Position numbers and translations under genes: made by a program. Below are positions 26,027 through 51,953 of a DNA stretch of 51,953 bases, piece after piece (position 1 is the first letter of the stretch; each line of letters starts with the position of its first letter). This stretch comes from Actinomycetota bacterium (GTDB lineage: Bacteria; Actinomycetota; Actinomycetes; JACCUZ01), in assembly GCA_030841035.1 (NCBI GenBank), contig JAVEDI010000102.1, positions 1 to 51,953 of the forward strand, written 5' to 3'. Below the pieces are notes generated by a model. It was given only the letters and a program-made list of their open reading frames with translations. It was not told where the DNA came from and ran no database searches.

Positions 26027-27439
26027 GTGCTGCTTCACAGCCACCGCCTCCGCCCGCAGGGCACCCGCACCTTCGTCGCCGCCGTCGCGGTGCTGGGCCT
26101 GGGTGTGGCACTGCTGCCCGGCCTGGCGCCGGTAGCCGCCGCCGCGAGCACGCGTAAGGGCGCTCACGTGCCCCGGGTGCTGGCGAGCATGCACGCGGAT
26201 CGCTCGGCGCCCCGGCCACTGCGCGGCGCCACGCTGGAGAGCGGCAGGGCCCACTTCGTCTACGCGATCCCGCGCAAGCCGGTGAAGCGAGTGATGTTCT
26301 GGGTGGACCGCAGCATGACCCACCGGCCCACGCGTGTGGACCGTACCGCCCCGTACGACATGGTCGCTGGCACGGCGTCGGCCGCGGGCCGATGGACTCC
26401 GAGACCCGGGCCCCATGTCGTGCGGGTCCGCTACGTGTGGCGCGACGGCGGCAGCAGGGTGCGGACCCTGCGCTTCGTCGCCAGCCGGCCCAGCGCGCCG
26501 GTCAAGAAGCGGCGTGCCCCCTCGGGCGCCCCGGCCGGACCCGTCCCGGGACTCCCCCCGAGCCTCCCCCCGGTCACCCCGCCGAGCGTCCCGCCGGTCA
26601 CCCCTCCCGGTAGCCCCGGGGGAGCCGACCTGCCCTCGGTCCCGGCCCCGAGCGGGAAGGCGTGGTCGCTGTCCTGGGCCGACGAGTTCAACGGGACGGC
26701 GGTCGACCCGTCGCGCTGGACAACCTGCTGGGACTGGACCTACGGCAACTGTTCGACATCGGGCAGCGCTCTGGGCGGCGTCGAGCGCTATTCGCCGAGC
26801 CAGGCGCGGCAGGCGACCGGCGTCGCGAGCCTGGTCGCCCAGCCGCTGAGCAGCCCGGAGGCCGGTTCCTGCTACCAGAACCAGTGTCGCTACACGTCCG
26901 GCCTGCTCACGACCGCCCGCCCCGGAGCTCCCTCATCGAGCTACCTTTACTCGTTCACCTACGGGTACGTCGAGGGCCGCATCCGGGCCAGCGACGACGC
27001 CGGGTTCTGGTCGACCTTCTGGATGCTGCCGCGCCGCACGGACCTCACGACCGACTACACGCACGAGATCGACATCCTCGAGATGGCCGGTGAGCGTCCG
27101 ACCACGGCGCTGCAGACCTACCACTTCGCCGGTCGCACGGCCCAGTGGCGGCCGAACTGGTCCCCCGCCGAGAACGGTTCCTGCCCGGTGCTGAAGTACG
27201 GCGGCACCTACCACACCTATGGGGTCGACTGGCAGCCCGACCACATCGCCTTCTATCTCGACGGCCGCAAGTGCGGGGAGTACACCAACGCGGCGAACAT
27301 CTACGACAAGCCGATGCAGATCATCCTCGAGCTGATGGTGAACTCGTCGTGGAACCGCAGCTTCGGCACCCCGCTGTCGGACTTCACCAAGACCAGCAGC
27401 ATGGACGTCGACTACGTGCGGGTCTGGCAGGCACGCTAG
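26027..27439 (+). CDS. Secreted family 16 glycoside hydrolase
   Basis: This 470-residue exported protein has a signal peptide (core TFVAAVAVLGLGVALLP, cleavage near VAAAAS), a beta-rich domain of about 90 residues (FWVDRSMTHRPTRVD, HVVRVRYVWRDGG), a Pro-rich linker and a GH16 domain at about 210-470. The catalytic motif is HEIDILEMAG, giving E347, D349 and E352 as nucleophile, helper and acid/base. Cysteine pairs in CWDWTYGNC and CYQNQC suggest disulfides. GH16 enzymes cut beta-1,3/1,4 glucans, galactans and related polymers; within an exopolysaccharide cluster it may trim or release the product. A shorter paralogue lies at 38898-39821. Confidence 0.92.
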   Translation: MLLHSHRLRPQGTRTFVAAVAVLGLGVALLPGLAPVAAAASTRKGAHVPRVLASMHADRSAPRPLRGATLESGRAHFVYAIPRKPVKRVMFWVDRSMTHRPTRVDRTAPYDMVAGTASAAGRWTPRPGPHVVRVRYVWRDGGSRVRTLRFVASRPSAPVKKRRAPSGAPAGPVPGLPPSLPPVTPPSVPPVTPPGSPGGADLPSVPAPSGKAWSLSWADEFNGTAVDPSRWTTCWDWTYGNCSTSGSALGGVERYSPSQARQATGVASLVAQPLSSPEAGSCYQNQCRYTSGLLTTARPGAPSSSYLYSFTYGYVEGRIRASDDAGFWSTFWMLPRRTDLTTDYTHEIDILEMAGERPTTALQTYHFAGRTAQWRPNWSPAENGSCPVLKYGGTYHTYGVDWQPDHIAFYLDGRKCGEYTNAANIYDKPMQIILELMVNSSWNRSFGTPLSDFTKTSSMDVDYVRVWQAR

Positions 27440-27687: not shown

Positions 27688-27792
27688 GGTCCGGTGCTGA
27701 AGCAGCCGTCAGTCACCACTGGCTCCTCGTCCGCCGTGCAGCCCGGAGGCGAGTCTATGCGGCATGCCGGCCGCCACCGCTCGCCCAGCAGA

Positions 27793-27798
27793 TACGCT
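27793..27798 (+). promoter_or_regulatory. Leaderless -10 element of the flippase gene
   Basis: TACGCT ends six bases before GTG at 27805, with no ribosome site. It fixes the start in a long upstream open frame. Confidence 0.62.
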
Positions 27799-27804
27799 CG
27801 TCCG

Positions 27805-29043
27805 GTGTCGTCACGCCGCGGGCTCACCGCGGACGTGAGCATCGTGTTCCTCTGCCGCTTCGTCGGCATGGTTCTCAACGCCGTCGTGTACGTCCTGGTC
27901 GCCCGAGCGATGGGACCGGCGGGATTCGGGCGCTTCGCCGCCGTGGCCGGCATCGTCACCGTCGCTCAGGTCCTGCTCGACGCGGGTACCAGCTCGGTCG
28001 TCTCCCGGGACGCCGCCGAGGGCCGCGAGCGGTCCTCGCTCACCGCGGCGCTGGTCTACCGGGGGTGGTTGCTCGCGCTGCTCGTCCTGGGCCTGCTGGG
28101 TCTGCTCGTCGCCGGCAGCTGGGGGCCCCCCTCGGTCCGGCCCGCGACGGCCGTCGTGGCGGCGGCCGCGGTCTGGACCGTGTCCGGTGTCCTGCAGGTC
28201 CTCGCGGTGGGCCTGCTGATCGGCAGGGGTCGCACACTGGCCGGATCGGTGCTGCCGCTCGCCGAACGCGTCCTCGCGGTGGTGGTGATCCTGCTCGTGC
28301 TGCTGGCGGACCGGCTCTCGGTCACCTCGACGCTCGCCGCCGTGGCCGGCAGCTGCCTGGCGACCGCGGTGGTGGCTGGGGTGACGCTGCGCGCCGACGT
28401 GCTGGCCGGCTGGGCCGGCCGGGCCCGCGCGCGCGGCAGCGCCCTGGGCGCCGCTCCCAGCTTCCTGACCAGCAGCCTCGGTGCTCAGCTGCAGAACCTC
28501 GACGTACCTCTGGTCGGCGCCCTTGCGGGAGCCGGCAGCGCGGGCCTGCTCGCGGCTCCGTCCCGGCTGACGACACCGCTGGGCCTCGTCGCGGCGTCCG
28601 CGGCCAGCATCCTGCTCGTCCAGGCGCGTCATCACGCCGGCGGTCCCCGTCCCGCGGGGGCGCGACCGCTGCGCCGGGTGGTGGCCGGCGTGCTCGCCTT
28701 GACGGCGCTGGGCGCGTTGCCCCTGCTGGTCGTGCCGGAGCGCACGGCGCGGCTGCTGCTGGGGGAGGGGTACAGCGGCTCGGCCACCGTCTTCCGACTG
28801 GTGGCCGTGGGTGTCTGCGTCGCCGCGGTCAACCAGCCGCTCGCCGCGCAGCTCCAGGCGATGCGCCGGCACCGGGAGGTCGCCATGATCGTCCTCGCGG
28901 GGGGGCTGCTGGGACTGGTCGTCGTGGCCGTCACCGCTCCGGCGGCCGGTGCTACGGGCGGCGGCGTCGGGATCCTGGGCTCGCAGCTGGTCATCCTGCT
29001 GGCGCTGGGTCTGGCCCTGCGCCGCCATGGGGTGGTCGCGTGA
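27805..29043 (+). CDS. Polysaccharide flippase of the Wzx / oligosaccharide transporter type
   Basis: This 412-residue polytopic membrane protein has about twelve hydrophobic segments. The N-terminus FLCRFVGMVLNAVVYVLVARAMGPAGFGRFA is split by the typical motif AR-x-x-GP-x-x-FG of the MOP superfamily polysaccharide transporters. It would flip lipid-linked repeat units from the cytoplasmic to the outer face of the membrane. Start choice rests on the leaderless -10. The stop overlaps the next gene by three bases (GTGA), so the two are one unit. Low sequence conservation is normal in this family, so the family call rests on topology and the N-terminal motif. Confidence 0.85.
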   Translation: MSSRRGLTADVSIVFLCRFVGMVLNAVVYVLVARAMGPAGFGRFAAVAGIVTVAQVLLDAGTSSVVSRDAAEGRERSSLTAALVYRGWLLALLVLGLLGLLVAGSWGPPSVRPATAVVAAAAVWTVSGVLQVLAVGLLIGRGRTLAGSVLPLAERVLAVVVILLVLLADRLSVTSTLAAVAGSCLATAVVAGVTLRADVLAGWAGRARARGSALGAAPSFLTSSLGAQLQNLDVPLVGALAGAGSAGLLAAPSRLTTPLGLVAASAASILLVQARHHAGGPRPAGARPLRRVVAGVLALTALGALPLLVVPERTARLLLGEGYSGSATVFRLVAVGVCVAAVNQPLAAQLQAMRRHREVAMIVLAGGLLGLVVVAVTAPAAGATGGGVGILGSQLVILLALGLALRRHGVVA

Positions 29044-29841: not shown

Positions 29842-30870
29842 TCAGGGCGGTGCAGGCCCGGACGGCCCTGGTTCCTCGGGCAGCCGCGGGGGGTCGGCTA
29901 GCCCGCGCTGCCCGCCGCCAGGGACCAGCAGCGCGGCCGCCCCGGCAAGAAGCGCCGGCACGAAGTAGACCGCGAGGTGGAACGGGACGATGAAGCCGAC
30001 GGCCGTGCTCGGGTCGACGCCGTAGAGACCGAGCGCCGCCCGCCCGGATGCCTCGAAGGGTCCGAAGAAGCCCGGGCTGGAGGGCAGCGCCACGCCGATG
30101 GCCAGGATGCCCTGAAGGGTCAGCGCGGCCCAGGCGGGCGCGTCGACGTGGAAGGCGCGCAGCCCCAACCACCCGGCGGAGCCGTTCAGGAGCCACGCGA
30201 GCACCGTCCAGAGCACGGCGAGGCCGAGCCGCCCCGAGCTGCGCAGCGCCTCCACACCGATGAGCGCCCCGTCGACCGCGTGGTCGGCCCGGGCCCGCAG
30301 CCGTTGCGGCAGCAGCCTGGCCGTCACGGCCGGGGCGAGGCTGCGCACCGGCTCGGCGAACCACGAAGCGGCCACCAGCACTGCCACCAGCGTCACCGAG
30401 ACGGCGGTGACGGCCAGGGAGAGCGGGAGGTAGGACGCCTGGTCCAGTGACCACAGCAGCGATGCGGACAACATCGCCAGGACGACCGCGCTGTCCAGGG
30501 CTCGTCCTGCGGCACTGGAGAGCAGCCCCGTGGAGATCGCGACCTTGCTCGAGCGACGCAACGCGACCAGGGTCGCGATCTCGCCGGCGCGCACCGGCAG
30601 GAGGTTGTTGACGAACGTGCCGATCACGACCGCTCGGACGAGATCCCGGGTGCGCGGCTCCACTCCCCGCGCGAAGAGGAAGCGCCAGCGGACGCCGCGC
30701 GCGACGAGACCGGCGAAGGCCGCCAGAGCGGCAGCGGTGAGGAGTCCGGGCGAACCCGAGCGCATGTGGCGCCAGGCGACCTCGAGGTCGACGTCGCGGA
30801 ACGCCCACCACAGCAGCAGGCACGTCAGCAGGACGCCCACTCCGACGAGGTAGGACCGCCGCGTGGTCAT
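29842..30870 (-). CDS. UPF0104 / lysylphosphatidylglycerol synthase-type membrane protein
   Basis: This 342-residue protein has about eight membrane helices and the marks of the YbhN/AglD (UPF0104) family: VIGTFVNNLLPVRAGEIATLVALRR in two parts and a C-terminal SSPGFFGPFEASG. The family shares its fold with the flippase half of MprF and appears often beside glycosyltransferases in polymer clusters, perhaps moving lipids or lipid-linked sugars. The C-terminal 35 residues are proline-rich and hydrophilic. The ATG at 30870 has GGGGAG just upstream. It is convergent with the preceding unit and divergent from the sulfotransferase. Confidence 0.85.
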   Translation of the reverse strand: MTTRRSYLVGVGVLLTCLLLWWAFRDVDLEVAWRHMRSGSPGLLTAAALAAFAGLVARGVRWRFLFARGVEPRTRDLVRAVVIGTFVNNLLPVRAGEIATLVALRRSSKVAISTGLLSSAAGRALDSAVVLAMLSASLLWSLDQASYLPLSLAVTAVSVTLVAVLVAASWFAEPVRSLAPAVTARLLPQRLRARADHAVDGALIGVEALRSSGRLGLAVLWTVLAWLLNGSAGWLGLRAFHVDAPAWAALTLQGILAIGVALPSSPGFFGPFEASGRAALGLYGVDPSTAVGFIVPFHLAVYFVPALLAGAAALLVPGGGQRGLADPPRLPEEPGPSGPAPP

Positions 30871-30972
30871 CGACTCCCCGAACCGTTGGTAGCAGCACCG
30901 TACTTGCCCGCTCGCGACGGACGTCGGAGGCCGCGGCCCTCGCGGTGGGGCATTATCGAGAGGTCGAGAGAG

Positions 30973-32025
30973 GTGAGCTTGTTCAGCGCACGTGAGTTCT
31001 CCAACTTCAAGGATCCCTGGGGCCTGCTCACCCGGATGGTCCGTAGCGGCGACCGGGCGGCCTTGGCCTCGCTGACGCGGGCTGCGACGGAGATCGTCGC
31101 CACGCCGCTGGACGGGGCGCTCTCGCGGCGCGAACGCCGTCTCGTCGAGCAGGGCGACCAGCCGTCCCAGCCGCTCGTCCTGGTCGTGGGAGGCGCTCGC
31201 ACCGGCAGCACCATGGTCTACCAGATGTTGGCCGCGGCGCTACCTGTCAGCTATTTCACCAACGTCACCGGGGTCTTCCCGAGGTCGCCGATCACGGCGA
31301 CGGGTCTCCTCGTCCGGGACTGGGACCGGCCCTCCGCCGACCTGCACAGCTTCTACGGCCAGACCGCACGCTGGACCGGTCCGAACGACGGCTTCGCGGT
31401 CTGGAACCGGTGGTTCGGCCACGACCGCTACGTCGCGCAGGGTGTCCCGGTGGACGAGGCGGGGCGGGCGGACATGCGCGCCTTCTTCGGAGCCTGGACC
31501 CGGTTGTTCCCACGGCCGTTCCTCAACAAGAACAACCGCAACACCAGCGTCGTCGCGCAGCTCGCCGACCTGCTGCCCACGGCGGTCTTCGTCAGCGTCA
31601 GCCGGGACCCGCTGTACGTCGGCCAGTCCCTCGTCATGGCGCGACAGAGGGTGCAGGGGGACCGTCGGGTGCCGTGGGGGCTGAACGCCCAGAGCACAGT
31701 GGACCCCTCGCTCCCGGGGCAGGACCCGATGGCCTACCTCGACGATGTCGCCGCGCAGGTTCACCGCACGGAGGCGCAGCTGCGCGAGCAGCTGGCCGGT
31801 CTTCCGCAGAGTCGGTGGATCGAGCTGGCCTACGAGGACGTCTGTCGCGACCCCGGGGACGCGATCCGGCGGGTCGCCGACCTGGTGCCTGGTCTCGAGA
31901 TGCGCCCGAGCTCGCTGGACGGGCCCCGACCGGATGCGCCGGGCAACACGGACCGGCTGGGCGAGGCCGAGCTGCAGCGGCTGCGCGACGCTCTCGACCT
32001 CCGCTATGGAGAGGCGACCGGATAG
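30973..32025 (+). CDS. Sulfotransferase family protein
   Basis: This 350-residue soluble protein resembles PAPS-dependent sulfotransferases. The 5'-phosphosulfate loop is LVVGGARTGSTMVYQML, the 3'-phosphate site VFVSVSRDPLYVGQSLVMAR, and the C-terminal IELAYEDVCRDPGDAIRRVADL is common to the family. In this setting the acceptor may be the polysaccharide or a lipid-linked repeat unit; that is inference. No PAPS synthesis genes are nearby. The start is uncertain: GTG at 30973 abuts the purine-rich GAGAGAGG, and TTG at 30979 would have better spacing. The 3' end overlaps the convergent membrane glycosyltransferase by 22 bases. Confidence 0.82.
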   Translation: MSLFSAREFSNFKDPWGLLTRMVRSGDRAALASLTRAATEIVATPLDGALSRRERRLVEQGDQPSQPLVLVVGGARTGSTMVYQMLAAALPVSYFTNVTGVFPRSPITATGLLVRDWDRPSADLHSFYGQTARWTGPNDGFAVWNRWFGHDRYVAQGVPVDEAGRADMRAFFGAWTRLFPRPFLNKNNRNTSVVAQLADLLPTAVFVSVSRDPLYVGQSLVMARQRVQGDRRVPWGLNAQSTVDPSLPGQDPMAYLDDVAAQVHRTEAQLREQLAGLPQSRWIELAYEDVCRDPGDAIRRVADLVPGLEMRPSSLDGPRPDAPGNTDRLGEAELQRLRDALDLRYGEATG

Positions 32026-35946: not shown

Positions 35947-35986
35947 GTCCCCCCTCGATGACAGAAGCACCCGACAACCATGGCTC

Positions 35987-35992
35987 TAGACT
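35987..35992 (+). promoter_or_regulatory. -10 element of the wzy-like gene
   Basis: TAGACT lies ten bases before ATG 36003, giving a transcript start at about 35999 with almost no leader and no ribosome site. The whole divergent control region to the glycosyltransferase unit is only 56 bases. Confidence 0.55.
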
Positions 35993-36002
35993 GGGTTCCA
36001 TC

Positions 36003-37541
36003 ATGGCATCGGGCGGCACCCCTGCGCCGGGGGCGCGAGGAACCGTCGACGTGCTGCGCAGCAGGCCCCCTTCTCGCCTGCACCGGCTGAAGCGACTCGC
36101 CCGGCGGGTGCCACCGGGGATCGCCCTGGACGTCGGCGCCGTCGCGACCGTGCTGCTGGCCGTCACCTACGCCTCCTCTCGCGGCATGGTGGCCGTGCTG
36201 CTCCTGCTGCCACTGCTGCTCGGCGGCGGCTTCGTCGCCGTCCTGTCCGGTTGGCTGCGCCCGGTCGAGGTGTCGGTCCTCGCCGGCATCCTGTGCCTGC
36301 TCACCACCCGGTCCAACATCCTCGGAGAGGCCTTCGGCATCGTGGGCTCGGCAGGCTGGCTGGTCGTGGCTGCCACGTCCCGCTCCTGGCTGCGCCACCC
36401 GCGGACCGTGCCGTTGCTGGTCGGTGTCGCGGCGAGCGTTCTCGCCTACTGGTCCTACATCGTGCTGCTCGACGCCCTGCGGTCCTCCAGCCTCCAGGCG
36501 GTGGTCGCGGCCGGTGCCGGCACGCTCGGCGGCCTGGCGGTCCCCAGCGTCCTCGCCACCGGGGCCGCCGTGGTGGGCTGCTGGGCGTTGGCCGTCGACC
36601 GGCAACGAGGGCCGCGGTTCGTCAAGGCGCTCGTCGCGTTGGGCGCGTGGCAGGTGCTGGGATATCTCGTGCTCGTGCCGCTGTGGCAGGTCGCCGGGCC
36701 CCGGGCCGGGCTGGTCGCCACCATCAACCCGCTGACCTTCGGTGGACGCGACGCCGACTTCGGCCTCTACGCCACCGGGATCCTCACCACCGGAGGAGGA
36801 GGCTTCGCCTCGGCGGTTGGTCCACGGCTGACCGGATGGACGGGGGAGCCCGGCATCCTGGGGGCCACGCTGCTGCTGGTGGCCTTCGCCGCGGCGGTGA
36901 CACCGGAGGTGTCGCTGCGGTGGCGGACCGCGGGATGGCTCGTCGCCCTCCTGGGCGTCGTGTGCGCGCAGAGCACCGCGTCGGTCCTCACGGCAGCGCT
37001 GGGGGCGGTCGTGGCGCTGGTGACCGTCCCAGCCACCCGGGCCGGACGGCTCCAGGGCGCCGTCTGGGCCGCGACCGCGGGCGCGTTCGCCTTCGCGGCC
37101 CTGCTGTTCAGCCGTTTCGGGCTGCGCGGCAAGGGTGAGCAGAGCCAGGTTTCGGTGACGGACCGGCTCAACGGGGTCGGAACACCCCGCGAGCTGTTCC
37201 AGACCTGGCTCCACGCACCCTTCGGCGCACCGTTGGCCAACGGTGGTTCGGTCGGGGTCAATCTCGTCCAGGAGTCGCTGCGGTACGGCGTGCTGGTGGC
37301 CCTGCTCGCCACGCTGGCCTTCCTGAGTCCGGCGGTGTGCGCGGGGGCCATGCGTAGACTGGCGCCAGCGGTGATCATGCTGCTCGCGACCGCGTGGTTC
37401 GCCCAGCCCGGCATGGCCAACCCGCTGTGGTTGGCGCTCTCGATGATCGCCGCCGGCGGCGTCGCCCGTGAGCAGCGCAAGGAGGAGCCCGTGCCCACGC
37501 CCAACGGCCGTCCGCTCACCGGTGCTGTCGCGATCCGATGA
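36003..37541 (+). CDS. O-antigen ligase / Wzy polymerase-like membrane protein
   Basis: This 512-residue protein has about twelve membrane helices and a larger outer loop in the second half (SVTDRLNGVGTPRELFQTWLHAPFGAPLANGG), the arrangement of Wzy polymerases and O-antigen ligases. The motif region HAPFGAPLANG is where many ligase-family proteins have H/R-x-PFG-x-G. It likely joins repeat units on the outer face of the membrane. ATG at 36003 is favoured by the -10 element; an in-frame upstream ATG at 35958 lies before that promoter. The stop overlaps the next gene in ATGA. Confidence 0.75.
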   Translation: MASGGTPAPGARGTVDVLRSRPPSRLHRLKRLARRVPPGIALDVGAVATVLLAVTYASSRGMVAVLLLLPLLLGGGFVAVLSGWLRPVEVSVLAGILCLLTTRSNILGEAFGIVGSAGWLVVAATSRSWLRHPRTVPLLVGVAASVLAYWSYIVLLDALRSSSLQAVVAAGAGTLGGLAVPSVLATGAAVVGCWALAVDRQRGPRFVKALVALGAWQVLGYLVLVPLWQVAGPRAGLVATINPLTFGGRDADFGLYATGILTTGGGGFASAVGPRLTGWTGEPGILGATLLLVAFAAAVTPEVSLRWRTAGWLVALLGVVCAQSTASVLTAALGAVVALVTVPATRAGRLQGAVWAATAGAFAFAALLFSRFGLRGKGEQSQVSVTDRLNGVGTPRELFQTWLHAPFGAPLANGGSVGVNLVQESLRYGVLVALLATLAFLSPAVCAGAMRRLAPAVIMLLATAWFAQPGMANPLWLALSMIAAGGVAREQRKEEPVPTPNGRPLTGAVAIR

Positions 37542-38917
37542 ACGCCACCGTGCTGGTGCGGCGCCTGGTGCGCGCGTGGCCGATCTACGTCCTCACCGGG
37601 CTGCTCGGCCTGCTCGCCGCGGCCGGGGGCAACGCCTTGGCGACCCCGACGTACCGCGCGCAGGTGGAGCTCTACGCCTCGAGCACATCCTCCACGAACG
37701 ACCTGTCGAACCTCTACCAGGGCGGCCTCTACGCCCAGCAGCAGGTGACCACCTACGCCCAGATCATCGACAGCCCCACGATCCTGAACCCGGTCATCGC
37801 GGCAACGGGTTCCCGGCTCACCGTCGACGCTCTGGAGCAGCGGGTGGAGGTGGCGGTGCGCCCCGACACCGCCCTCATCTCGGTGGCGGTCTCCGCGCTG
37901 CGCCCGGGCGAGGCGCAACGACTGGCCAACGCGGTGGCCGATGCATCGTCACGGGTCATCCCGACCCTCGGTGCTCCCAAGGGTTCCAGCCCTCCCACCG
38001 TGGCGGTCACGGTGCTGCAGCGTGCCCAACGACCGACGGCACCCGCCACGCCGCGCCGCACGCTCAACCTCGCACTCGGCCTGGCCTGCGGCCTGCTGCT
38101 GGGCCTGCTCGCGGTGCTCGTCCGGGCGTTGCTCGACCCCCTGATCCGCTCCTCCGAGCAGCTGGGCAGGTCCATCGGCGCGCCACCGCTGGGCGAGATG
38201 CCGGGGCCCGGCTGGGTCCCACGGCGGCGCAGGCTGTCCAGCTCGCCGGGGACGGGTGGCACCCGGGAGGCCGCCGAGCGGCTGCACACGTCGATCGCCA
38301 TGACAGACCCGTCAGCGCTGCGCCGGACCCTCGTCGTGACGTCGCCGGTCGCCGATGCAGGGCAGGGCCTGGTGGCCGTCGAGCTGGCCATGGCGATCGC
38401 TCGCGGCCGGGACGCGCTCGTCGTCCTCGTCGACGCGGACCTGAGGAACCCCGACGTGGACGTCCAGGTCAACTGCTTCCCGGACGCGGGACTCGCCGAC
38501 GTGCTGGCCGGCCGCGTCATGCTCGACGACGCGCTGTGCCCGGTCGGTCGCCTCGGCCTCAGCCTGCTCTCGGCGGGCTCGCCGCAGGCCGACGCGTCGG
38601 AGCTCGTCGCTTCCCGGGTGATGCTCGACGTGATCAGCCGGCTGGAGAAGCTCTACGAGTACGTCGTCATCAAGGCACCACCCGTGCTCCCGGTCAGCGA
38701 TGCGGCGGTTCTCTCCGCCCTGACCGACGGCACCGTCGTCGTGGCCGAGCGCGGTGTCACCCGGCGCCGAGACGCCGCCGAGGCGTTGAGGTCGCTCTAC
38801 GCCGTGCGTTCGAAGGTCCTGGGCGGCGTGCTGACGTACGGCGTCAACACGCCACGGCCCGGCGCCCACCGCGGGGCCTCCGTGCCGGTGCCGCCGGTCA
38901 GCCGGGGGGCGCCGTGA
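37538..38917 (+). CDS. Wzz/BY-kinase-like polysaccharide copolymerase with degenerate ATP site
   Basis: This 459-residue protein has two membrane helices (about 15-35 and 175-200) around an extracellular Wzz-type domain (TYRAQVELYASS, YAQQQVTTYAQIIDSP), then a cytoplasmic tyrosine-kinase-like ATPase domain. The Walker A' strand VVLVDADLRNPDV (D299, D301, R303) is kept, but the Walker A loop reads DAGQGLVA where GEGKST-type residues are expected (Lys to L278), and the Walker B acidic residue is K379 in VVIKAPPVLPVSDAAVL. There is no C-terminal tyrosine cluster. It probably controls chain length without kinase activity. It overlaps the wzy-like gene by four bases. Confidence 0.85.
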   Translation: MNATVLVRRLVRAWPIYVLTGLLGLLAAAGGNALATPTYRAQVELYASSTSSTNDLSNLYQGGLYAQQQVTTYAQIIDSPTILNPVIAATGSRLTVDALEQRVEVAVRPDTALISVAVSALRPGEAQRLANAVADASSRVIPTLGAPKGSSPPTVAVTVLQRAQRPTAPATPRRTLNLALGLACGLLLGLLAVLVRALLDPLIRSSEQLGRSIGAPPLGEMPGPGWVPRRRRLSSSPGTGGTREAAERLHTSIAMTDPSALRRTLVVTSPVADAGQGLVAVELAMAIARGRDALVVLVDADLRNPDVDVQVNCFPDAGLADVLAGRVMLDDALCPVGRLGLSLLSAGSPQADASELVASRVMLDVISRLEKLYEYVVIKAPPVLPVSDAAVLSALTDGTVVVAERGVTRRRDAAEALRSLYAVRSKVLGGVLTYGVNTPRPGAHRGASVPVPPVSRGAP

Positions 38918-39821
38918 CCGGGACGCTGCGCCACACGCGGCAGTAGTCCACGACCATCCGGCCGCCGGCCGGGACGTCGGTCAGGCTGAGCCCGCCCGAC
39001 CTGCTCGTGGACGGATAGACCATCAGCTCGAGGATCAGCTGCACGGGCTTGTCGTAGATGTTCGCCGCATCGGAGAACCGGCCGCAGGCCTGGCCGTCGC
39101 GGTAGAACGTGATGCTGTCCGGTCGCCAGTCCACGCCGTAGGTGTGGAAACCAGCGGTGGCCAGCGGCGGGCAGTCGCGGGCGCGGAACTGCCGCGTCCG
39201 ACCGGCGTAGTGATAGGTCTGCAGGGTCGTGCCGGCCCGCTCGCCTGCGGCCTCCAGCACGTCGATCTCATGCGTGTAGTCCCCGCGCAGGTCCGTGCGC
39301 CGGGGCAACAGCCAGAACGTCGACCACAAGCCGGGCGCGGCGCTGACCTCGATCCGCGCCTCGGCGTAGCCGTACCGGAACACGTACCTGTAGGGGCGTC
39401 CGGACCCGGGTCGAGCGGTCGTGAGCAGGCCGGAGCGGTGCGTGCAGCGGCCCTGGTAGCACTGCCCGCGGCGAGGCTTCGCCAGGCGCTGCGCGACCAG
39501 CGTGGCGACGCCGTCACGGACCCGGACCTGGCGGGGCGTGTACCGTTCGAGCCCGCCGAGAGCGGTCGCGCTGCGCGAGCAGTCCGACACCGTCCAGTCC
39601 CAGCAGGTCGTCCACCGGGAACGGTCGACGGCAGAGCCGTCGAACTCGTCGGCGAAGGTCAGCCGCCAGGTCCGTCCTGCTGGTGCCGTGACCGCCGGGG
39701 GCGGGACCGGGTCGCCGTCGGAGGGCGCGAGCACAGAGTCGGCCCCGGCGACCACGGCTGACCCCGCGAGCAGTGCACCGGCCGCCGCCACCCCGAGACG
39801 GGCCATCGCGGATCGGGCCAT
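38898..39821 (-). CDS. Secreted family 16 glycoside hydrolase (shorter paralogue)
   Basis: This 307-residue exported GH16 enzyme has a signal peptide (MARSAMARLGVAAAGALLAG), a short linker, then one catalytic domain. The active-site motif HEIDVLEAAG gives E185, D187 and E190. It shares with the larger GH16 protein at 26027-27439 the stretches RWTTCWDWT, LERY-P-Q, CYQ-x-x-C, SGLLTTARPG, STFW-LPRRTDL and NIYDKP, so the two are clear paralogues. The ATG at 39821 is chosen because of the leaderless -10 at 39828-39833 and because the signal peptide begins there. The 3' end overlaps the wzz-like gene by 20 bases. Confidence 0.9.
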   Translation of the reverse strand: MARSAMARLGVAAAGALLAGSAVVAGADSVLAPSDGDPVPPPAVTAPAGRTWRLTFADEFDGSAVDRSRWTTCWDWTVSDCSRSATALGGLERYTPRQVRVRDGVATLVAQRLAKPRRGQCYQGRCTHRSGLLTTARPGSGRPYRYVFRYGYAEARIEVSAAPGLWSTFWLLPRRTDLRGDYTHEIDVLEAAGERAGTTLQTYHYAGRTRQFRARDCPPLATAGFHTYGVDWRPDSITFYRDGQACGRFSDAANIYDKPVQLILELMVYPSTSRSGGLSLTDVPAGGRMVVDYCRVWRSVPVTAPPG

Positions 39822-39827
39822 GCGGGG

Positions 39828-39833
39828 ACGGTA
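39828..39833 (-). promoter_or_regulatory. Leaderless -10 element of the second GH16 gene
   Basis: TACCGT on the minus strand ends six bases before ATG 39821. It separates this gene from the big operon, whose last gene ends at 39866. Confidence 0.6.
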
Positions 39834-39865
39834 CCTCGCCGGCGCACCGGTTCGGGCCTTCCCGC

Positions 39866-41056
39866 TCAGAAGCCCGGCTCCCGCGCAGAGGGAGCGGCGA
39901 AGTCGGGCAACCGTGCTCCCAGCCCGAGCAGGCAGCACACGGCCGCCGCTGCTCTGGCGGAGGCCCGCCCGTCGCCGTACGGGCTGCTCGCCGGCCGCTG
40001 CGCCGGGCGCCGCGGGGCCGACAGATAGCCCTCCGCCGCGCTGACGATGGCGTCCCGCTCGGTGCCCACCAGCGTGACGATGCCCGAGGCCAGGCCCTCC
40101 GGACGCTCGGTCGTGTCGCGGGCGACCAGCACGGGCTTGCCGAGGCTGGGGCCCTCCTCCTGGAGGCCCCCGCTGTCGGTGATCACCAGGTCGCTCGCGT
40201 TCAGCACGTGGCAGAGCTCGCCGTACGGCAGGGGTTCGGTCAGCACGACGTTGGGCAGCTGCGCCAGCCGCGGGACGAGGACCTCGCGGACGACCGCGTT
40301 CGGGTGCGCCGGCAGCACGATGCCGGCTGCGGGATGGCGCCGCGCGATCGTGGCCACCGCGTCGGCGACCCTGCCCATCGGCTCCCCCCAGGCCTCTCGC
40401 CTGTGCAGCGTCACCAGGACCGTGTGGGTGCTGGCCTCCAGCAGGGCGGGGACCCGGGGGTCGCTCCAGGACGGCGGGCGACCGACCGTCATGTAGAGGG
40501 CGTCGATCACCGTGTTCCCTGTGACGACGATGTCCTTCGGGGCGACCCTCTCGGCCTCGAGGTTGCGCCGGCTGTGCAGTGTCGGAGCCAGGTGCAGGTC
40601 GGTGAGCTGCGTGGTGAGCCGGCGGTTGGCCTCCTCGGGGAACGGCCGCTGCCGGTCGCCGGTCCGCAGCCCCGCCTCCAGGTGGACCACCGGGACGTGC
40701 TCGTAGAACGCCGCCAGAGCGCCGGTGAACGTCGTGGTGGTGTCTCCCTGGACGATCACCGCGTGGGGCCGGACCCGGCGCACCACCTCCACCAACCGCG
40801 GCAGGGCCCGCTCCGTCAGCTGGGCGGGCGTCTGTCCGTGCTCGAGCAGCCGCAGGTCGAACTGCGGCGCGATGCCGAACAGGCCGTTGACCTCGTCGAG
40901 CATCTCCCGGTGCTGGCCGGTGACGGCCACGGTCAGCTCGATGCCGGCTTCCTGGCGCAACGCCGCAACCAGCGGGCCCATCTTGATCGCCTCCGGCCGG
41001 GTGCCGTACACGACCAGGACGCGCTTGCTCGACGCTGCGGACGACGGGTCACTCAT
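39866..41056 (-). CDS. wecB: UDP-N-acetylglucosamine 2-epimerase (non-hydrolysing) family
   Basis: This 396-residue cytoplasmic enzyme has all major WecB/MnaA motifs: VYGTRPEAIKMGPL, TGQHREMLD, VQGDTTTTFTGAL, VVHLEAGLRTGD, LVTLHRREAWGEPM and ITDSGGLQEEGPSLGKPVLVARDTTERPE. It interconverts UDP-GlcNAc and UDP-ManNAc, or, if it is of the WbpI kind, epimerises the 2,3-diacetamido uronic acid nucleotide. The nearby dehydrogenase, aminotransferase and acetyltransferase make the second option attractive, but the sequence alone does not separate the two. It is the last gene of the eight-gene operon and overlaps the deacetylase gene by eight bases. Confidence 0.93.
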   Translation of the reverse strand: MSDPSSAASSKRVLVVYGTRPEAIKMGPLVAALRQEAGIELTVAVTGQHREMLDEVNGLFGIAPQFDLRLLEHGQTPAQLTERALPRLVEVVRRVRPHAVIVQGDTTTTFTGALAAFYEHVPVVHLEAGLRTGDRQRPFPEEANRRLTTQLTDLHLAPTLHSRRNLEAERVAPKDIVVTGNTVIDALYMTVGRPPSWSDPRVPALLEASTHTVLVTLHRREAWGEPMGRVADAVATIARRHPAAGIVLPAHPNAVVREVLVPRLAQLPNVVLTEPLPYGELCHVLNASDLVITDSGGLQEEGPSLGKPVLVARDTTERPEGLASGIVTLVGTERDAIVSAAEGYLSAPRRPAQRPASSPYGDGRASARAAAAVCCLLGLGARLPDFAAPSAREPGF

Positions 41057-45005: not shown

Positions 45006-46216
45006 GTACGACCTACCTCCTCACCGATGGTCGCCAGCAGGAGCTCGACGTGGACCTCTTCGAACTTCTCGTTCCACGGCAGCACGAGCACCGACTCGAG
45101 GAAGGCGAAGGTGCCCGGGAAGCGAGCGGCGTCGTAGTCGCGAGCCTCGGGTCGCGCCAAGGAGAGCGGCCAGCTGCTCGACCCGAGGGTACGGGCGTCG
45201 ACGAAGATGCCGCACCGGAAGGCCGGCTTGCCGATGTAGCGCGGTGCGGCAGGGATGCCGCGGGACCGCAGCCGCCTCGCGAGGCGGGTCACGCCGTCGG
45301 GCACCACTGCCTGGTCCATGACCAGGGGGTACCGCCAGTACGCGTGCTCGGCACCCGGCGCGGGCGCCGGAGTGACGAGCCCCGGCACGGAGGCCAGCCC
45401 GGCCGAGAGCTGCTCGGCCAACCGGCGCCGGTGCGCGACGAACTCCGGCAGGCGGGGGAGCTGGGCGAGCAGGACCGCGCTGTGCAGCTCGGTGGTGCGG
45501 TAGTTGAGTCCCAGCTTGCGATGGTCGGGCTGGCTCTCGCCGTAGGGCCACGACTTGTTGACGAACAGCCGTATCTCGTGGGCGAGTCCGTCGTCGTCGG
45601 TCACCACGATGCCGCCTTCGCCGGCGGTGATGTGCTTGCCCTGCTGGAAGCTGAAGCAGCCGACGTCCCCCAGCGTGCCGACCCGCTGCCCGCCCCGGGA
45701 GGCCAGGAACGCCTGCGCCGCGTCCTCGATGACGGTCACGCCCTCGCCCATGGCCGACCGGATGCCCCCGACGTCGGCTGGGTTGCCGAAGAGGTGAGTC
45801 ACGATGACGGCCCGCGTGCGGTCGCTGCGGACCGCCGAGACCGTCTCCGGGGTGACGTTGCCGGTCGTGCGGTCGACGTCCGCGAAGACCGGGATCAGGC
45901 CCTGGTAGAGCAGCGGTGTGAGGGCACCCATGTCGGTCACTGCCGTGGTGATGACCTCGTCACCCGGTTCGAGCTCCAGCGCAGCGACTGCGGCGTGCAC
46001 GGCTGCGCTCCCCGACGCGCACGCGATGGCGTGGCGGACCCCGAGCAGGTCGGCGAACTGCCGCTCGAACCGCGGCGTCACGGCGCCCTTGGTGGCGGTC
46101 AGGGTGCCCGACGCGATCACCTCTGCCAGGAGTTCCATCACCCGCGCGTCGAAGCTGCGGCCGCCGGCGCCCTGGTCGTCGGGGAGGACGAGGTCGGGCG
46201 ACACGGTGTCGGTCAT
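45002..46216 (-). CDS. DegT/DnrJ/EryC1/StrS sugar aminotransferase (WbpE-like)
   Basis: This 404-residue PLP enzyme transfers an amino group to a keto-sugar nucleotide. K194 in FSFQQGKHITAGEGG is the Schiff-base lysine, D165 in IEDAAQAF binds the pyridine nitrogen, and ACASGSAAVHAAVAAL forms the phosphate-binding loop. The C-terminal part (FLESVLVLPWNEKFEEVHV) resembles the group that acts on UDP-linked sugars. Paired with the dehydrogenase and acetyltransferase downstream, it would install the 3-amino group. ATG at 46216 follows GGAG and overlaps the stop of the glycosyltransferase fusion. Confidence 0.9.
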   Translation of the reverse strand: MTDTVSPDLVLPDDQGAGGRSFDARVMELLAEVIASGTLTATKGAVTPRFERQFADLLGVRHAIACASGSAAVHAAVAALELEPGDEVITTAVTDMGALTPLLYQGLIPVFADVDRTTGNVTPETVSAVRSDRTRAVIVTHLFGNPADVGGIRSAMGEGVTVIEDAAQAFLASRGGQRVGTLGDVGCFSFQQGKHITAGEGGIVVTDDDGLAHEIRLFVNKSWPYGESQPDHRKLGLNYRTTELHSAVLLAQLPRLPEFVAHRRRLAEQLSAGLASVPGLVTPAPAPGAEHAYWRYPLVMDQAVVPDGVTRLARRLRSRGIPAAPRYIGKPAFRCGIFVDARTLGSSSWPLSLARPEARDYDAARFPGTFAFLESVLVLPWNEKFEEVHVELLLATIGEEVGRT

Positions 46217-48381
46217 GAGTTCTCCTGTCGTTGCCACGTGGTGACGTGCATCTGTGCCGCCGCGGGGGCCGGTCGCGCTGGGGCGGCAGCCGCCCGCGGG
46301 CGATGCCTGCGCAGCCGCACCCCGTCCCCGAACACCCGCCATGACTCCGCCAGCGCCTTGCGAGACAGAAGCTGCGTGCGCCCGCGGCGGGGTGCGCGGC
46401 CCGACCAGTCCAGGGTCGCCGGGATCTCGGTGACGTGCAGCCCGCGCCGAAGGGCGAGGTGCAGAACCTGGACGTTCGCGGCCGGCCCGCGGCGCAGGTC
46501 TGGCAGGGAGCGCGCGAAGTCGCCGTCGTACAGCCGGACCATCGCGGTGAACGTGTGCACCGGCGTGCCGGACATGCCTGCGAGGTACCGGTTGGCCATC
46601 CGGCTGCGGAGGGCCAGCAGGCGCGGGACCTCCACGAGCCGCCCGTCACGCATGTACGGAGACGTCGTGACGACGGCTGCGCCCTCCGACCGCCAAGCGG
46701 CCAACAGGCGACCGATGTGCTCGACGTCGTAGCTGAGGTCCGCGTCCAGCGTGATGACGGCGTCGCCGCGTGCTTCGGAGAACACCGTCTGCAGGGCAGC
46801 GCCCAGGCCCTGGTTGCGCGCGTGACGGACCAGCCGGACCGGCAGGGGCAGGTCGCTGGCGGCGACCCACCGCTCCACCACGTCCGGCGTGCCGTCCCGG
46901 GACCCGTCGTCGACCACGACCATCTCCCACCGGAACCCGTCCAGGAGGCGGACGTGCTCGGCCAGGGTCTGCAGAGTGCGGGCGATGTCCGCCGACTCCT
47001 GGTAGACCGGCAGCCCGAGCGTCACGAGGGGGGTCGACGCCAAGCGGGCCGGCCACCGCGTCAGCGGGGTGGGGCGCACGGACGGTGCCGGGTCCGCCAC
47101 GAGGCGGCCGAGCGTCTCCTGCAGCATGTGCAGACTGCGCTCCGGAGCCAGGTTGGCCCGGAAGTAGCGCAGCCCGTGCTCGCCGTAGCGTCGGCCCAGG
47201 TCCGTGCCGGCGAGCGAGCGTACGGCGGCACCCACATCGCGGTCGCCGGGGGCAAGAAGCATCCCGGTCTTATGGGCGCGCAGGTCCAGCCCGGTCGCCG
47301 ACTCCGGCCGGACCAGGCCCAGGACGGGTACGCCGGACGCGACGTAGGAGGTGAGCTTGCTGGGCAGGCTCATGTCCACCACGCTGGAGCGCTCGTGCAG
47401 CAGCAGCACGTCGGCCGCGCGCAGCAACGAAGGGTAGTCGCTCTCGCTCACGGGGTCGTGGAAACGGACGTTGGGAAGCCCGCGGGTCATCCCCTCGAGG
47501 CGCCGCCGCTGGTTCCCGTCCCCGACGAAGGCGAACAGGATGTCCGGGTCGGTCTCCGCCGTGTCCCGCAGGCGCGGCACGAGCTCGTCCAGCCCTTGCT
47601 TCTGCCCGAGGTTGCCCGTGTGCAGCACGACGGTCCGGTCGCCCCAGCCCATCCCCCGGCGCAGCTGCGCCCCGTCGAGCGTGCTGCTCTCCTGCAGGCG
47701 GCTCCAGTTCCTGATGACGCGCAGGGGGACGGATCCGCCGGTCAGCCGGTCCACGGGCTCCCGGAATGCCTCGCTCGCCAGCGCGATGACGTCGGCCTGC
47801 CGCAGGGTCCGTCCCTCCAGCCACCCCAGCACGTGAGAGGCGGCGCCCGGCGCGCCGGCGGCCAACCCGCTCTGGGCCGCCGCGGAGGACACCACGTCCT
47901 GGACCCACTGCAGCAGCGGCAGGCGCCCCAGCCGGGCCGCCGTCGTGGCCAGCCAGGCACCGAGCAGCGTCGGCGAGCACCCGATGACGACGTCGGGGTC
48001 GAGGGTGAGCGCCCGACGGGCGGCAGCCGCGACGAACGACGCCTCGTAGACCGCTCGCCACGCCAGATCGGGCTGGGCCGGGACGACGCAGGGCACCCGG
48101 TGCACGGAGACACCGTTGAGCCGCTCCCGGTGCCAGCGTGCGCGCGAGTCCGGATGGCGCCGCCACTGCGGATAGTGCGGTTGGGTCGTGACGACGTCCA
48201 CGACGGCACCGCACCGGGCCAGGTGCTCGGCGAGATCGGTGGTGTACGGCGCCGAGCCGCTGAGCTCGGGTGCGTAGTACATCGAGACCAGCAGGACGCG
48301 GCGGCCTTCCAGGTGCCCGTCCCTGAGGGCTGCTGTGCCCGCGGCCGCCTCGAAGGACGGCTGACCGTCAAGGGCGGTCAC
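46213..48381 (-). CDS. GT4-GT2 fusion glycosyltransferase
   Basis: This 722-residue protein combines two transferases. Residues about 25-430 are a GT4 (WcaI-like) enzyme: LLVSMYYAPELSGSAPYTTDLAEHL, HTGNLGQKQGLDELV and the donor region LPSKLTSYVASGVPVLGLV. Residues about 450-690 are a GT2 domain like dolichyl-phosphate mannose synthases: VTLGLPVYQESADIARTL, VVVDDGSRDGTPDVV and ITLDADLSYD with the DxD metal site. The tail is Ala/Pro/Arg-rich. One chain could carry out two successive steps, or the GT2 half could make a polyprenyl-phosphate sugar for the GT-C enzyme at 32004-33752. It overlaps both neighbours by four bases. Confidence 0.87.
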   Translation of the reverse strand: MTALDGQPSFEAAAGTAALRDGHLEGRRVLLVSMYYAPELSGSAPYTTDLAEHLARCGAVVDVVTTQPHYPQWRRHPDSRARWHRERLNGVSVHRVPCVVPAQPDLAWRAVYEASFVAAAARRALTLDPDVVIGCSPTLLGAWLATTAARLGRLPLLQWVQDVVSSAAAQSGLAAGAPGAASHVLGWLEGRTLRQADVIALASEAFREPVDRLTGGSVPLRVIRNWSRLQESSTLDGAQLRRGMGWGDRTVVLHTGNLGQKQGLDELVPRLRDTAETDPDILFAFVGDGNQRRRLEGMTRGLPNVRFHDPVSESDYPSLLRAADVLLLHERSSVVDMSLPSKLTSYVASGVPVLGLVRPESATGLDLRAHKTGMLLAPGDRDVGAAVRSLAGTDLGRRYGEHGLRYFRANLAPERSLHMLQETLGRLVADPAPSVRPTPLTRWPARLASTPLVTLGLPVYQESADIARTLQTLAEHVRLLDGFRWEMVVVDDGSRDGTPDVVERWVAASDLPLPVRLVRHARNQGLGAALQTVFSEARGDAVITLDADLSYDVEHIGRLLAAWRSEGAAVVTTSPYMRDGRLVEVPRLLALRSRMANRYLAGMSGTPVHTFTAMVRLYDGDFARSLPDLRRGPAANVQVLHLALRRGLHVTEIPATLDWSGRAPRRGRTQLLSRKALAESWRVFGDGVRLRRHRPRAAAAPARPAPAAAQMHVTTWQRQENS

Positions 48382-49895
48382 GACCCGCTCCGCGTGAAGA
48401 TGGAGATGGTGGTGCGGAGCAGGATCTTGATGTCGCTCCAGAGCGACCAGTTCTCGATGTAGTAGTTGTCGAAGAGCAGCCGGTCCTGGATGGACGTGTC
48501 CCCGCGCAGGCCGTGGACCTGAGCCCAGCCGGTGAGCCCGGCCGGCACCCGGTGCCGCGCGGTGTACCGCGGCATGGACTCGGTGAACTTCTGCACGAAG
48601 AACGGGCGCTCGGGCCGCGGCCCCACCAGGCTCATCTGGCCGCGCAGCACGTTGACCAGCTGCGGCAGCTCGTCGAGGGAGGTCTTCCTCAGGAAGCGGC
48701 CGACGGGCGCCACCCGGCCATCAGCGGCGATCGACCACTCGAGGTCGGACTGGTTGTCCGAGCTGCGCAGGGTGCGGAACTTCAACAGCTCGAACTGCCG
48801 GCCGTCGAGCCCCACCCGCCGCTGGCGGTAGATCACACCGCGGCCGCACTCGAGACGTACCGCCACGGCGCACGCCAGCATGAACGGGGACAGCAGCACG
48901 AGGAGCGTCGCGGCGACCAGCATGTCGAGCGCGCGCTTGACCGGCCAGATCGGGCTGCGGTGAGTGGCTCGACGGAGCCTGATCACCGGGATGCCCCAGA
49001 TCTCCTCGACGTCCCTCGTCCGGTGGTGCAGCTCGAACAGTCGCGGGATGTAGAAGATGTCGCAGTCCAGCCGGTCGCACTGGCGGATGATGTCGACGAT
49101 CGAGGACTCCGGCGCGGAGGTGAAGGCGATCACCACCACGCCGATCTCGTGCCGGCCGAGGACAGCGGCCAGGTCGGTGCCGTCGCCCAGGAGCGGCAGC
49201 TCCAAGGGGTCGTCCTTGCCGCCGTGCAGCGGCTCGGCGTCGACGAAGCCGACCGGCTTGAGGCCGTAGACGCTGTTGTGCAGCAGCGTCCCGGCGATGT
49301 GCACACCCACCGCCCCGGCTCCGTAGATCAGCGTTCGGTGGCTCACGGTTCCGCGTCGCCGCATGGCGCGCACCAGGTGGTAGGACGCGGCCCGCCCGGC
49401 GACCAGGCCGGCGGCGCCCGAGAGGGCCACCGCCATGGTCGTGGACGGGGCGACCGGGCCGAGCGACGTCGAGGCGCTCACCAGCACCACCAGACCGGCG
49501 GCCGTGAGGCAGCGGCCGAGCAAGGGGGGCAGGTCGTCGAGCACGGACAGGCTCAGCCGGGACCGGTACAACCCTCCCGCGGCGAGCAGCAGGCTGGTCA
49601 GGCCGACGAACGACAGCGCGGCACCCATCGCATGGTGGCCGACCACGACCGCCACGAGCAGCCCGAGCAGGTCGATCGTCACCAGCAGCGGCGCGACGCT
49701 CCAGCGCGTCCACACCGGCCGGCCGCTCACCCTGGGCACCCTCGCCGAGGGGTCCTGCGCGGCGTCCCGCTGGTCGGGCGCGGAGGTCCGGTAGCCCGAG
49801 TCCGGCCGAGGCTGCGCGGGACCGAGGACGTCGGAGGGATGGTAGGGACGATCACGCGTGAGGCTGCGTCGCCGGCCCGAGGGCCCCGCTGTCAC
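48378..49895 (-). CDS. Initiating polyprenyl-phosphate sugar-1-phosphate transferase (WcaJ/CpsE type)
   Basis: This 505-residue membrane protein starts the repeat unit by moving a sugar-1-phosphate onto undecaprenyl phosphate. It has four N-terminal helices, a CoA-binding-like Rossmann domain (RTLIYGAGAVGVHIAG), a fifth helix-loop (KRALDMLVAATLLVLLSPF) and the catalytic domain with YRQRRVGLDGRQFELLKFRTL, NVLRGQMSLVGPRPERP and GLTGWAQVHGLRG. GTG at 49895 has GGGGAG six bases before it; an upstream in-frame GTG at 49931 lacks such a site. It is the first gene of the eight-gene operon. Which sugar is used cannot be told. Confidence 0.93.
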   Translation of the reverse strand: MTAGPSGRRRSLTRDRPYHPSDVLGPAQPRPDSGYRTSAPDQRDAAQDPSARVPRVSGRPVWTRWSVAPLLVTIDLLGLLVAVVVGHHAMGAALSFVGLTSLLLAAGGLYRSRLSLSVLDDLPPLLGRCLTAAGLVVLVSASTSLGPVAPSTTMAVALSGAAGLVAGRAASYHLVRAMRRRGTVSHRTLIYGAGAVGVHIAGTLLHNSVYGLKPVGFVDAEPLHGGKDDPLELPLLGDGTDLAAVLGRHEIGVVVIAFTSAPESSIVDIIRQCDRLDCDIFYIPRLFELHHRTRDVEEIWGIPVIRLRRATHRSPIWPVKRALDMLVAATLLVLLSPFMLACAVAVRLECGRGVIYRQRRVGLDGRQFELLKFRTLRSSDNQSDLEWSIAADGRVAPVGRFLRKTSLDELPQLVNVLRGQMSLVGPRPERPFFVQKFTESMPRYTARHRVPAGLTGWAQVHGLRGDTSIQDRLLFDNYYIENWSLWSDIKILLRTTISIFTRSGS

Positions 49896-50023
49896 TTGCT
49901 TCTCCCCTGCCTCTGGTGTGTGCCCCGTCACCAGGCCCCCCCTGGCACGTCTGTTCGACCAACGTCTGAGGCTCTTCGTCCGTCGCCCCTTTCGACCTGC
50001 TCCGGAAGCCCGACCGACGTGAC

Positions 50024-50312: not shown

Positions 50313-51953
50313 GTGCGACCGACCACCGATCTCGAGCGACGTGTGGCGCCGTTCCGCGTCCTGAGCGACTTCCAGCCCTCCGGCGACCAGCCGGCGGCCA
50401 TCGACGAGCTCGAGCGCCGGGTCAGGGCGGGGGAGAGCAACGTCGTCCTGCTGGGTGCCACCGGCACCGGCAAGTCCGCCACGACCGCCTGGCTGGTCGA
50501 GCGGCTGCAGCGCCCCACGCTGGTGATGGCGCCCAACAAGACGCTGGCGGCGCAGCTGGCGACGGAGTTCCGCGAGCTGCTGCCCAACAACGCGGTCGAG
50601 TACTTCGTCTCCTACTACGACTACTACCAGCCCGAGGCCTACATCCCGCAGACCGACACCTACATCGAGAAGGACTCGTCCATCAACGACGAGGTCGAGC
50701 GGCTGCGGCACTCGGCGACGAACAGCCTGCTGACCCGCCGCGACGTGATCGTGGTGGCGTCCGTCTCCTGCATCTACGGTCTCGGCACCCCGCAGGAGTA
50801 CGTCGACCGCATGGTGCGGCTGAAGGTCGGCGACACGCTCGAGCGCGACCAGCTGCTGCGGCGCTTCGTCGAGATCCAGTACACCCGCAACGACCTGGCC
50901 TTCACCCGCGGCACCTTCCGGGTGCGCGGCGACACGATCGAGATCTTCCCGGTCTACGAGCAGCTGGCCGTGCGCATCGAGATGTTCGGTGACGAGATCG
51001 AGCGGCTGATGACGCTCCATCCCCTGACGGGCGAGGTGATCACCGAGGACGAGGAGCTCTACGTCTTCCCGGCCACCCACTACGTCGCGGGCCCGGAGCG
51101 GATGGAGAAGGCGATCACCGGCATCGAGCTCGAGCTCGCTGACCGGCTGGCCGAGCTCGAGAAGCAGGGCAAGCTGCTCGAAGCGCAACGGTTGCGGATG
51201 CGCACGACCTACGACATCGAGATGATGCGCCAGGTCGGGTTCTGCTCCGGCATCGAGAACTACTCCCGGCACATCGACGGCCGCGCGCCCGGGTCCGCGC
51301 CCAACTGCCTGATCGACTACTTCCCCGAGGACTTCCTGCTCGTCATCGACGAATCGCACCAGACGGTGCCGCAGATCGGCGGCATGTACGAAGGTGACAT
51401 GTCCCGCAAGCGGACCCTCGTCGACCACGGGTTCCGGCTGCCCAGCGCGACGGACAACCGGCCGCTGAAGTGGGAGGAGTTCCTCGGCCGCATCGGCCAG
51501 ACGGTCTACCTCTCGGCGACCCCCGGTCCCTACGAGCTGAACCGGGCCGAGGAGGCGCCGGTCGAGCAGGTCATCCGCCCGACGGGGCTGGTGGACCCCG
51601 AGGTCGTCGTCAAGCCGACCAAGGGCCAGATCGACGACCTCGTCCACGAGATACGGCTGCGTGCCGAGCGCAACGAGCGCGTCCTCGTCACCACGCTGAC
51701 CAAGAAGATGTCCGAGGACTTGACGGACTACCTGCTCGAACTGGGTATTCGAGTGCGCTATCTCCATTCCGAGGTTGACACTCTGCGTCGGATCGAGCTG
51801 CTGCGAGAGCTGCGCTCCGGCGAATACGACGTTCTCGTCGGCATCAACCTGTTGCGCGAGGGCCTCGATCTGCCCGAGGTGTCGTTGGTGTCGATCCTCG
51901 ACGCCGACAAGGAGGGTTTCCTCCGGTCCGGCACGTCGCTGATCCAGACGATC
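50313..51953 (+). CDS. uvrB: Excinuclease ABC subunit B, N-terminal part (3' end cut by window edge)
   Basis: The first 547 residues of UvrB, the helicase-like damage verifier of nucleotide excision repair, are visible; roughly 150 residues are missing at the right edge. Walker [12 protein letters not shown], the beta-hairpin region [28 protein letters not shown], the DEAD-type box VIDESHQT, and helicase motifs SATPGPYE and [13 protein letters not shown] are intact. GTG at 50313 is set by the leaderless -10. From about base 51720 (TTGACGGACTAC) codon use changes abruptly to include TTG, ATT, CGA, TAT, CAT, GTT and ACT, although the protein remains a normal UvrB. Confidence 0.97.

Follow-up and report, generated by a model that had tools for sequence, protein, structure and literature searches.

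The window, a stretch of 51,953 nucleotides forming one contig of a draft actinobacterial genome, encodes a fused PCP-2-like copolymerase, the cytoplasmic domain of which resembles BY-kinases but, judged from its residues, does not carry the motif set of an active enzyme: Walker A, Walker B, the EX2RX2R motif and the Tyr cluster are missing, and only Walker A' is present. It is likely that this protein acts as a phosphorylation-independent PCP-2 of the Wzx/Wzy pathway with the BY-pseudokinase domain serving as a scaffold, and the assembly of the sugar coat probably does not depend on the phosphorylation switch that usually controls it. In current models, capsule and EPS assembly is switched by cycles of Tyr phosphorylation of the copolymerase. 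In this genome, kinase activity appears to be missing along with the phosphatase and the acceptor tyrosines, while the Wzx/Wzy locus looks complete, which makes the genome a natural kinase-free case.

The copolymerase gene and its surroundings

The open reading frame and strand proposed by the sequence-only reading were correct; the gene encodes 459 amino acids, is open over its full length and shows a normal third-position GC of 0.92. The Wzz domain scores 35.3 bits at a Pfam cut-off of 25.5, and the NCBIfam autokinase models match the C-terminal part with scores below their cut-offs. Together with two transmembrane (TM) helices flanking an extracytoplasmic domain and a predicted, cytoplasmic BY-kinase fold after TM2, the protein displays the PCP-2 architecture, and its family membership suggests a role in chain-length control. 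The following features were assigned to it:

37538..38917, + strand, fused PCP-2-like copolymerase with BY-pseudokinase domain, 459 aa (Wzz, PF02706)
37565..37621, + strand, TM1, residues 10-28, start of the Wzz region (hydropathy; helix 14-34 in the AlphaFold2 model)
38057..38152, + strand, TM2, residues 174-205, after a Pro-rich conserved segment with P166, P169 and P172 (hydropathy and conserved prolines)
38255..38305, + strand, helix with broken EX2RX2R motif, E244-A-A-E247-R-L-H250 (alignment)
38342..38374, + strand, degenerate Walker A, SPVADAGQGLV, Lys replaced by Q276, Ser/Thr by G277 and Glu by A274 (alignment)
38420..38452, + strand, retained Walker A', VVLVDADLRNP, residues 295-305 (alignment)
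38654..38692, + strand, degenerate Walker B, YEYVVIKAPPVLP, Asp replaced by K379 (alignment)
38840..38914, + strand, C-terminal tail without Tyr, of low model confidence and probably disordered (sequence, AlphaFold2 model)

The gene appears to be part of a Wzx/Wzy cluster, in which Wzy is recognised by topology only. The candidate Wzy gene lies directly upstream, its end overlapping the copolymerase start (ATGA); its product has no Pfam match, and its topology and position point to the polymerase. The cluster also holds several glycosyltransferases, a DegT aminotransferase and a polysaccharide deacetylase. Its main members are:

26027-27439, + strand, second GH16 glycanase
27745..29043, + strand, Wzx flippase (Polysacc_synt, 60.3 bits), start codon tentative
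30766-32025, + strand, sulfotransferase (Sulfotransfer_3), true start probably inside the ORF
35958..37541, + strand, multi-TM protein of 527 aa, Wzy polymerase candidate (about 12-13 hydrophobic segments)
38898..39938, - strand, GH16 glycoside hydrolase, convergent with the copolymerase gene, 20-base overlap (domain match)
39866..41056, - strand, UDP-GlcNAc 2-epimerase, WecB type (domain matches)
46213-48381, - strand, fused glycosyltransferase, GT4-type N-terminal and GT2-type C-terminal domain
48378..49931, - strand, initiating sugar-phosphate transferase, Bac_transf with CoA_binding_3 (domain matches)
50313..51953, + strand, gene which we take to be uvrB-like from its recognised sequence, cut by the contig end, cluster boundary, indicating that the G001 polysaccharide locus occupies the same chromosomal site

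The presence of the sulfotransferase gene within a polysaccharide cluster suggests a sulfated glycan, and the two GH16 glycanases could trim the polymer and hence affect its length.

Kinase motifs, predicted fold and possible partners

The register of the kinase-like domain was set with a panel of 131 homologs from the same class, 130 of them intact and one from the congeneric genome G001, and by direct HMMER alignments to the BY-kinases BceF and CapAB from the PDB. The segment SPVADAGQGLVAVE pairs without gaps with the S-x-x-P-G-E-G-K-[ST]-T-T region of CapAB/BceF and all 130 intact homologs. Accordingly, the catalytic Lys position of Walker A (Lys/Arg in 130/130 intact homologs) is occupied by Q276 and that of the Mg-liganding Ser/Thr (130/130) by G277, while A274 replaces a residue that is E/D in every intact homolog; the P-loop glycine G275 is kept. 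The sequence-only reading was thus right about the loss of Walker A, but its assignment to L278 and V279 was shifted by two positions. L278 corresponds to the next Thr, a variable position at which four intact homologs have Leu as well, and the V279 position is likewise variable. The other points that it had named were confirmed: K379 stands where 130/130 intact homologs have the Walker B Asp, Walker A' is intact with its DxDxR as DADLR (residues 299-303), and the C-terminal Tyr cluster is absent, since no Tyr follows Y434 and none occurs in the 25-residue tail. Moreover, PPNPSE has become QADASE. A shifted but intact Walker A was also sought in the whole protein and in forward frames +2 and +3 and was absent; the protein contains no GK dipeptide, and GK[ST] does not occur in either of these frames. 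Hence, the catalytic losses stand with a corrected Walker A register.

One further loss had been overlooked, namely that of the EX2RX2R motif, which is present in 123/132 alignment rows and reads E244-x2-E247-x2-H250 (R247E, R250H) in the window protein; without this oligomer motif, the protein may be unable to make the contact of the classical ring. In total, the window protein deviates in 15 of 73 near-invariant columns, and 14 of these lie inside the kinase-like domain. This domain is the most diverged part of the protein, its identity to the panel being below that of all 130 intact homologs and low even when the N-terminal half is taken into account (z = -3.6).

Despite these changes the BY-kinase fold is predicted to be retained. 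The AlphaFold2 model with 54 relatives reached a mean pLDDT of 84, with values near 90 across most of the kinase-like domain, although such a fold is expected from an alignment with intact relatives and the model says little on nucleotide binding. Foldseek TM scores were 0.90 for CapA1B1, 0.85 for CapAB and about 0.8 for the Wzc kinase domain.

A separate active kinase was searched for across the genome, a draft in 120 contigs with 99.8% completeness, in which absence is no proof. Neither the window protein nor TIGR01007 detected a second BY-kinase; other P-loop matches were short or weak, and those inspected were ParA/CpaE-like. Likewise, no second Wzz protein was detected in this draft, in which the gene is single-copy, and no CpsB_CapC-type phosphatase was found there. 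The sole match of the LMW-PTP fold (LMWPc) in the genome is arsenate-reductase-like, the arsenate reductase models themselves matching below their curated cut-offs. A CTGNICRS-type LMW-PTP is carried by G006, a relative with intact kinase. In the latter genome (L154), a DUF4012-like gene directly adjoins a Wzb-like LMW-PTP, and the search of the window genome revealed no phosphatase of this type; a DUF4012 protein is encoded in the window cluster as well (23873-25693, - strand).

Recurrence across Actinomycetes

Homologs in the first panel had been ordered by how similar they are to the window protein, and only the window and G001 proteins deviated in it. This initial picture of a single genus-specific loss reflected ranking bias and was dropped, because the low-scoring tail contained five more degenerate homologs: L199 (G190), L201 (G237), L204 (G193), L211 (G287) and L219 (G273). 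Altogether, the Walker A Lys is missing from 7 of 180 assessable homologs of the class, which belong to five genera and differ from one another in their substitutions. The Walker B Asp is kept in L204 and L219, and the congeneric L004 (G001) has lost A' also. All degenerate homologs keep the entire kinase-like domain, and most of their loci are adjoined by Wzx and/or Wzy_C genes. G287 possesses an intact copy too, about 43 kb from the degenerate one on the same contig; in the other six pseudokinase genomes no intact BY-kinase was found, the TIGR01007 matches being below cut-off. A search for related loci with the window protein as query found none. Tail loss without catalytic loss is seen in L088 (G195) and L104 (G336), which have intact Walker motifs and a tail devoid of Tyr.

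The phylogeny gave four state changes on the best tree and three to six in bootstraps, of which the strongly supported branches force only one. That both pseudokinases of the genus go back to one event is compatible with the data (AU p = 0.25, long branches), and the number of losses may be smaller, given that long branches meet with weak support.

The gene lists hint at a possible loss of the locus-linked phosphatase in the pseudokinase genomes. An LMW-PTP was listed within 25 kb in 24/58 intact genomes vs 0/7 pseudokinase genomes (one-sided Fisher p = 0.03) and the same contrast gave p = 0.08 at 10 kb, the cut-offs having been picked after the list was seen and low-scoring LMW-PTP matches lying outside it. 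Within about 10 kb on each side of the seven pseudokinase loci, where the contig allows, no LMW-PTP was present. As a more doubtful extension, kinase-free PCP-2 proteins might have arisen repeatedly in Actinomycetes together with loss of the locus-linked Wzb-type phosphatase, and would then represent a separate branch in which monoderms control chain length independently of phosphorylation. In the window protein, a pairing of K379 with the kept A' aspartates might hold the domain in a single state. The recurrence is the most interesting part of the finding, and it suggests that some monoderm systems, with no outer-membrane export to gate, can dispense with the phosphorylation cycle. Among open-licence papers, no published description of recurrent kinase loss across Actinomycetes was found.

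Function of the kinase-like domain

The octamer of Wzc forms in the unphosphorylated state and comes apart once the Tyr tail is phosphorylated (PMC8285477). Its residues Lys540, Thr541 and Asp642, the first and last of them as a pair, arrange Mg-ATP and also organise the change between open and closed states (PMC8517177). The window protein is devoid of counterparts of these three residues and of the acceptor tyrosines; hence, a phosphorylation cycle through it is very unlikely. The sequence-only reading had asked how polymer length is controlled without such a cycle. This question is not wholly open, because BY-pseudokinase PCP-2 proteins have been described (PMC12004946, PMC4182512). PssP2 of Rhizobium leguminosarum is a fused protein without Walker motifs or Tyr cluster that contacts the polymerase PssT, and its mutant produces EPS of altered length (PMC4182512). 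EcpK/EpsV of Myxococcus and HfsB/HfsA of Caulobacter are BY-pseudokinase PCP-2 systems working independently of phosphorylation (PMC12004946). PCP-2 proteins without kinase motifs thus have a part in polymer length or production, and they make contact with the polymerase or a PCP partner, as found for PssP2 (PMC4182512) and EcpK/HfsB (PMC12004946).

The window protein resembles PssP2 in combining a Wzz half and a BY-kinase-like half in a single chain from which Walker motifs A and B and the Tyr cluster are gone, whereas PssP2 is Gram-negative, has 586 aa, reportedly lacks also A' and occurs beside a second PCP, PssP. It shares with EcpK/HfsB a BY-kinase fold without Walker residues A and B or Tyr tail that works with a Wzx/Wzy PCP; however, the latter are bipartite systems of separate proteins in Gram-negative bacteria with outer-membrane export, and EcpK is without several secondary-structure elements. 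EcpK, like PssP2, is reported to have lost all three Walker motifs, the window protein only A and B. Fused PCP-2 pseudokinases of the S. meliloti SMc01795 type reportedly have the same fused architecture and lost kinase motifs (cited in PMC12004946); these forms belong to Alphaproteobacteria or Vibrio and are likened to the window protein by description only. CapB1 of S. aureus also has a BY-kinase fold and is inactive in vitro, but its active-site motifs are conserved, it is a separate polypeptide and it has the active paralog CapB2 (PMC3795738). Within the family, a single intact homolog was found, L003/L237 of MAG BP_167; it has the same fused architecture at 36% identity, but with an intact EEGKTTT, the Walker B Asp and a YGYGYGY tail. 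Hence, the precedents are Gram-negative, and the window protein is an actinobacterial addition to a known kind of BY-pseudokinase PCP-2.

Collectively, the retained predicted fold, the lost catalytic, docking and Tyr residues, the failure to find another BY-kinase in the draft genome and the coupling to the Wzy candidate support the idea of a pseudokinase copolymerase put forward in the sequence-only reading. We infer that the Wzz half and the retained cytoplasmic fold would assemble around the Wzy polymerase, and that chain length would be set through protein-protein contacts and stoichiometry, rather than by a cycle in which the protein autophosphorylates on Tyr, the ring disassembles and a phosphatase drives its reassembly. 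Alternatively, the C-terminal domain might be a decaying remnant, the Wzz half alone acting like a kinase-free PCP-1 regulator. PCP-1 Wzz proteins do control length without a kinase, and the fastest divergence in the kinase-like domain and the lost docking motif would fit relaxed constraint. The EX2RX2R loss fits both explanations, because the motif is not needed without trans-phosphorylation, yet its absence weakens the case for a classical ring. Against decay speak the full-length open frame with normal third-position GC, the 58/73 near-invariant columns that are kept, the high-confidence predicted fold and the lack of truncation in any degenerate homolog. Together with the precedents of PssP2 and EcpK/HfsB, which favour a scaffold role, this makes neutral decay rather unlikely.

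It is very improbable that the domain has kept nucleotide binding or works as a kinase through an unconventional active site: the kept Walker A' DxD and G275 would allow for it, but Lys, Ser/Thr and Walker B Asp, of which the Wzc equivalents organise Mg-ATP (PMC8517177), are all gone, as is the Tyr tail, and no dedicated phosphatase was detected in the genome. A trans modulator of a separate active BY-kinase, as proposed for CapB1/CapB2 of S. aureus (PMC3795738) and in line with the intact and degenerate copies that the related genome G287 has side by side in its gene set, is hardly to be expected in a 99.8% complete genome in which no second BY-kinase was found and the other inspected matches are ParA/CpaE-like. 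An error of sequencing, assembly or frame deserves consideration in a draft of 120 contigs, however, we regard it as nearly negligible, because several independent base changes, spread over several codons of one clean frame, would be required for the key substitutions at positions constant in 130 homologs, and the G001 protein is degenerate too. The latter is encoded in a different polysaccharide cluster that also abuts uvrB (L157), which argues against contamination of the window contig.
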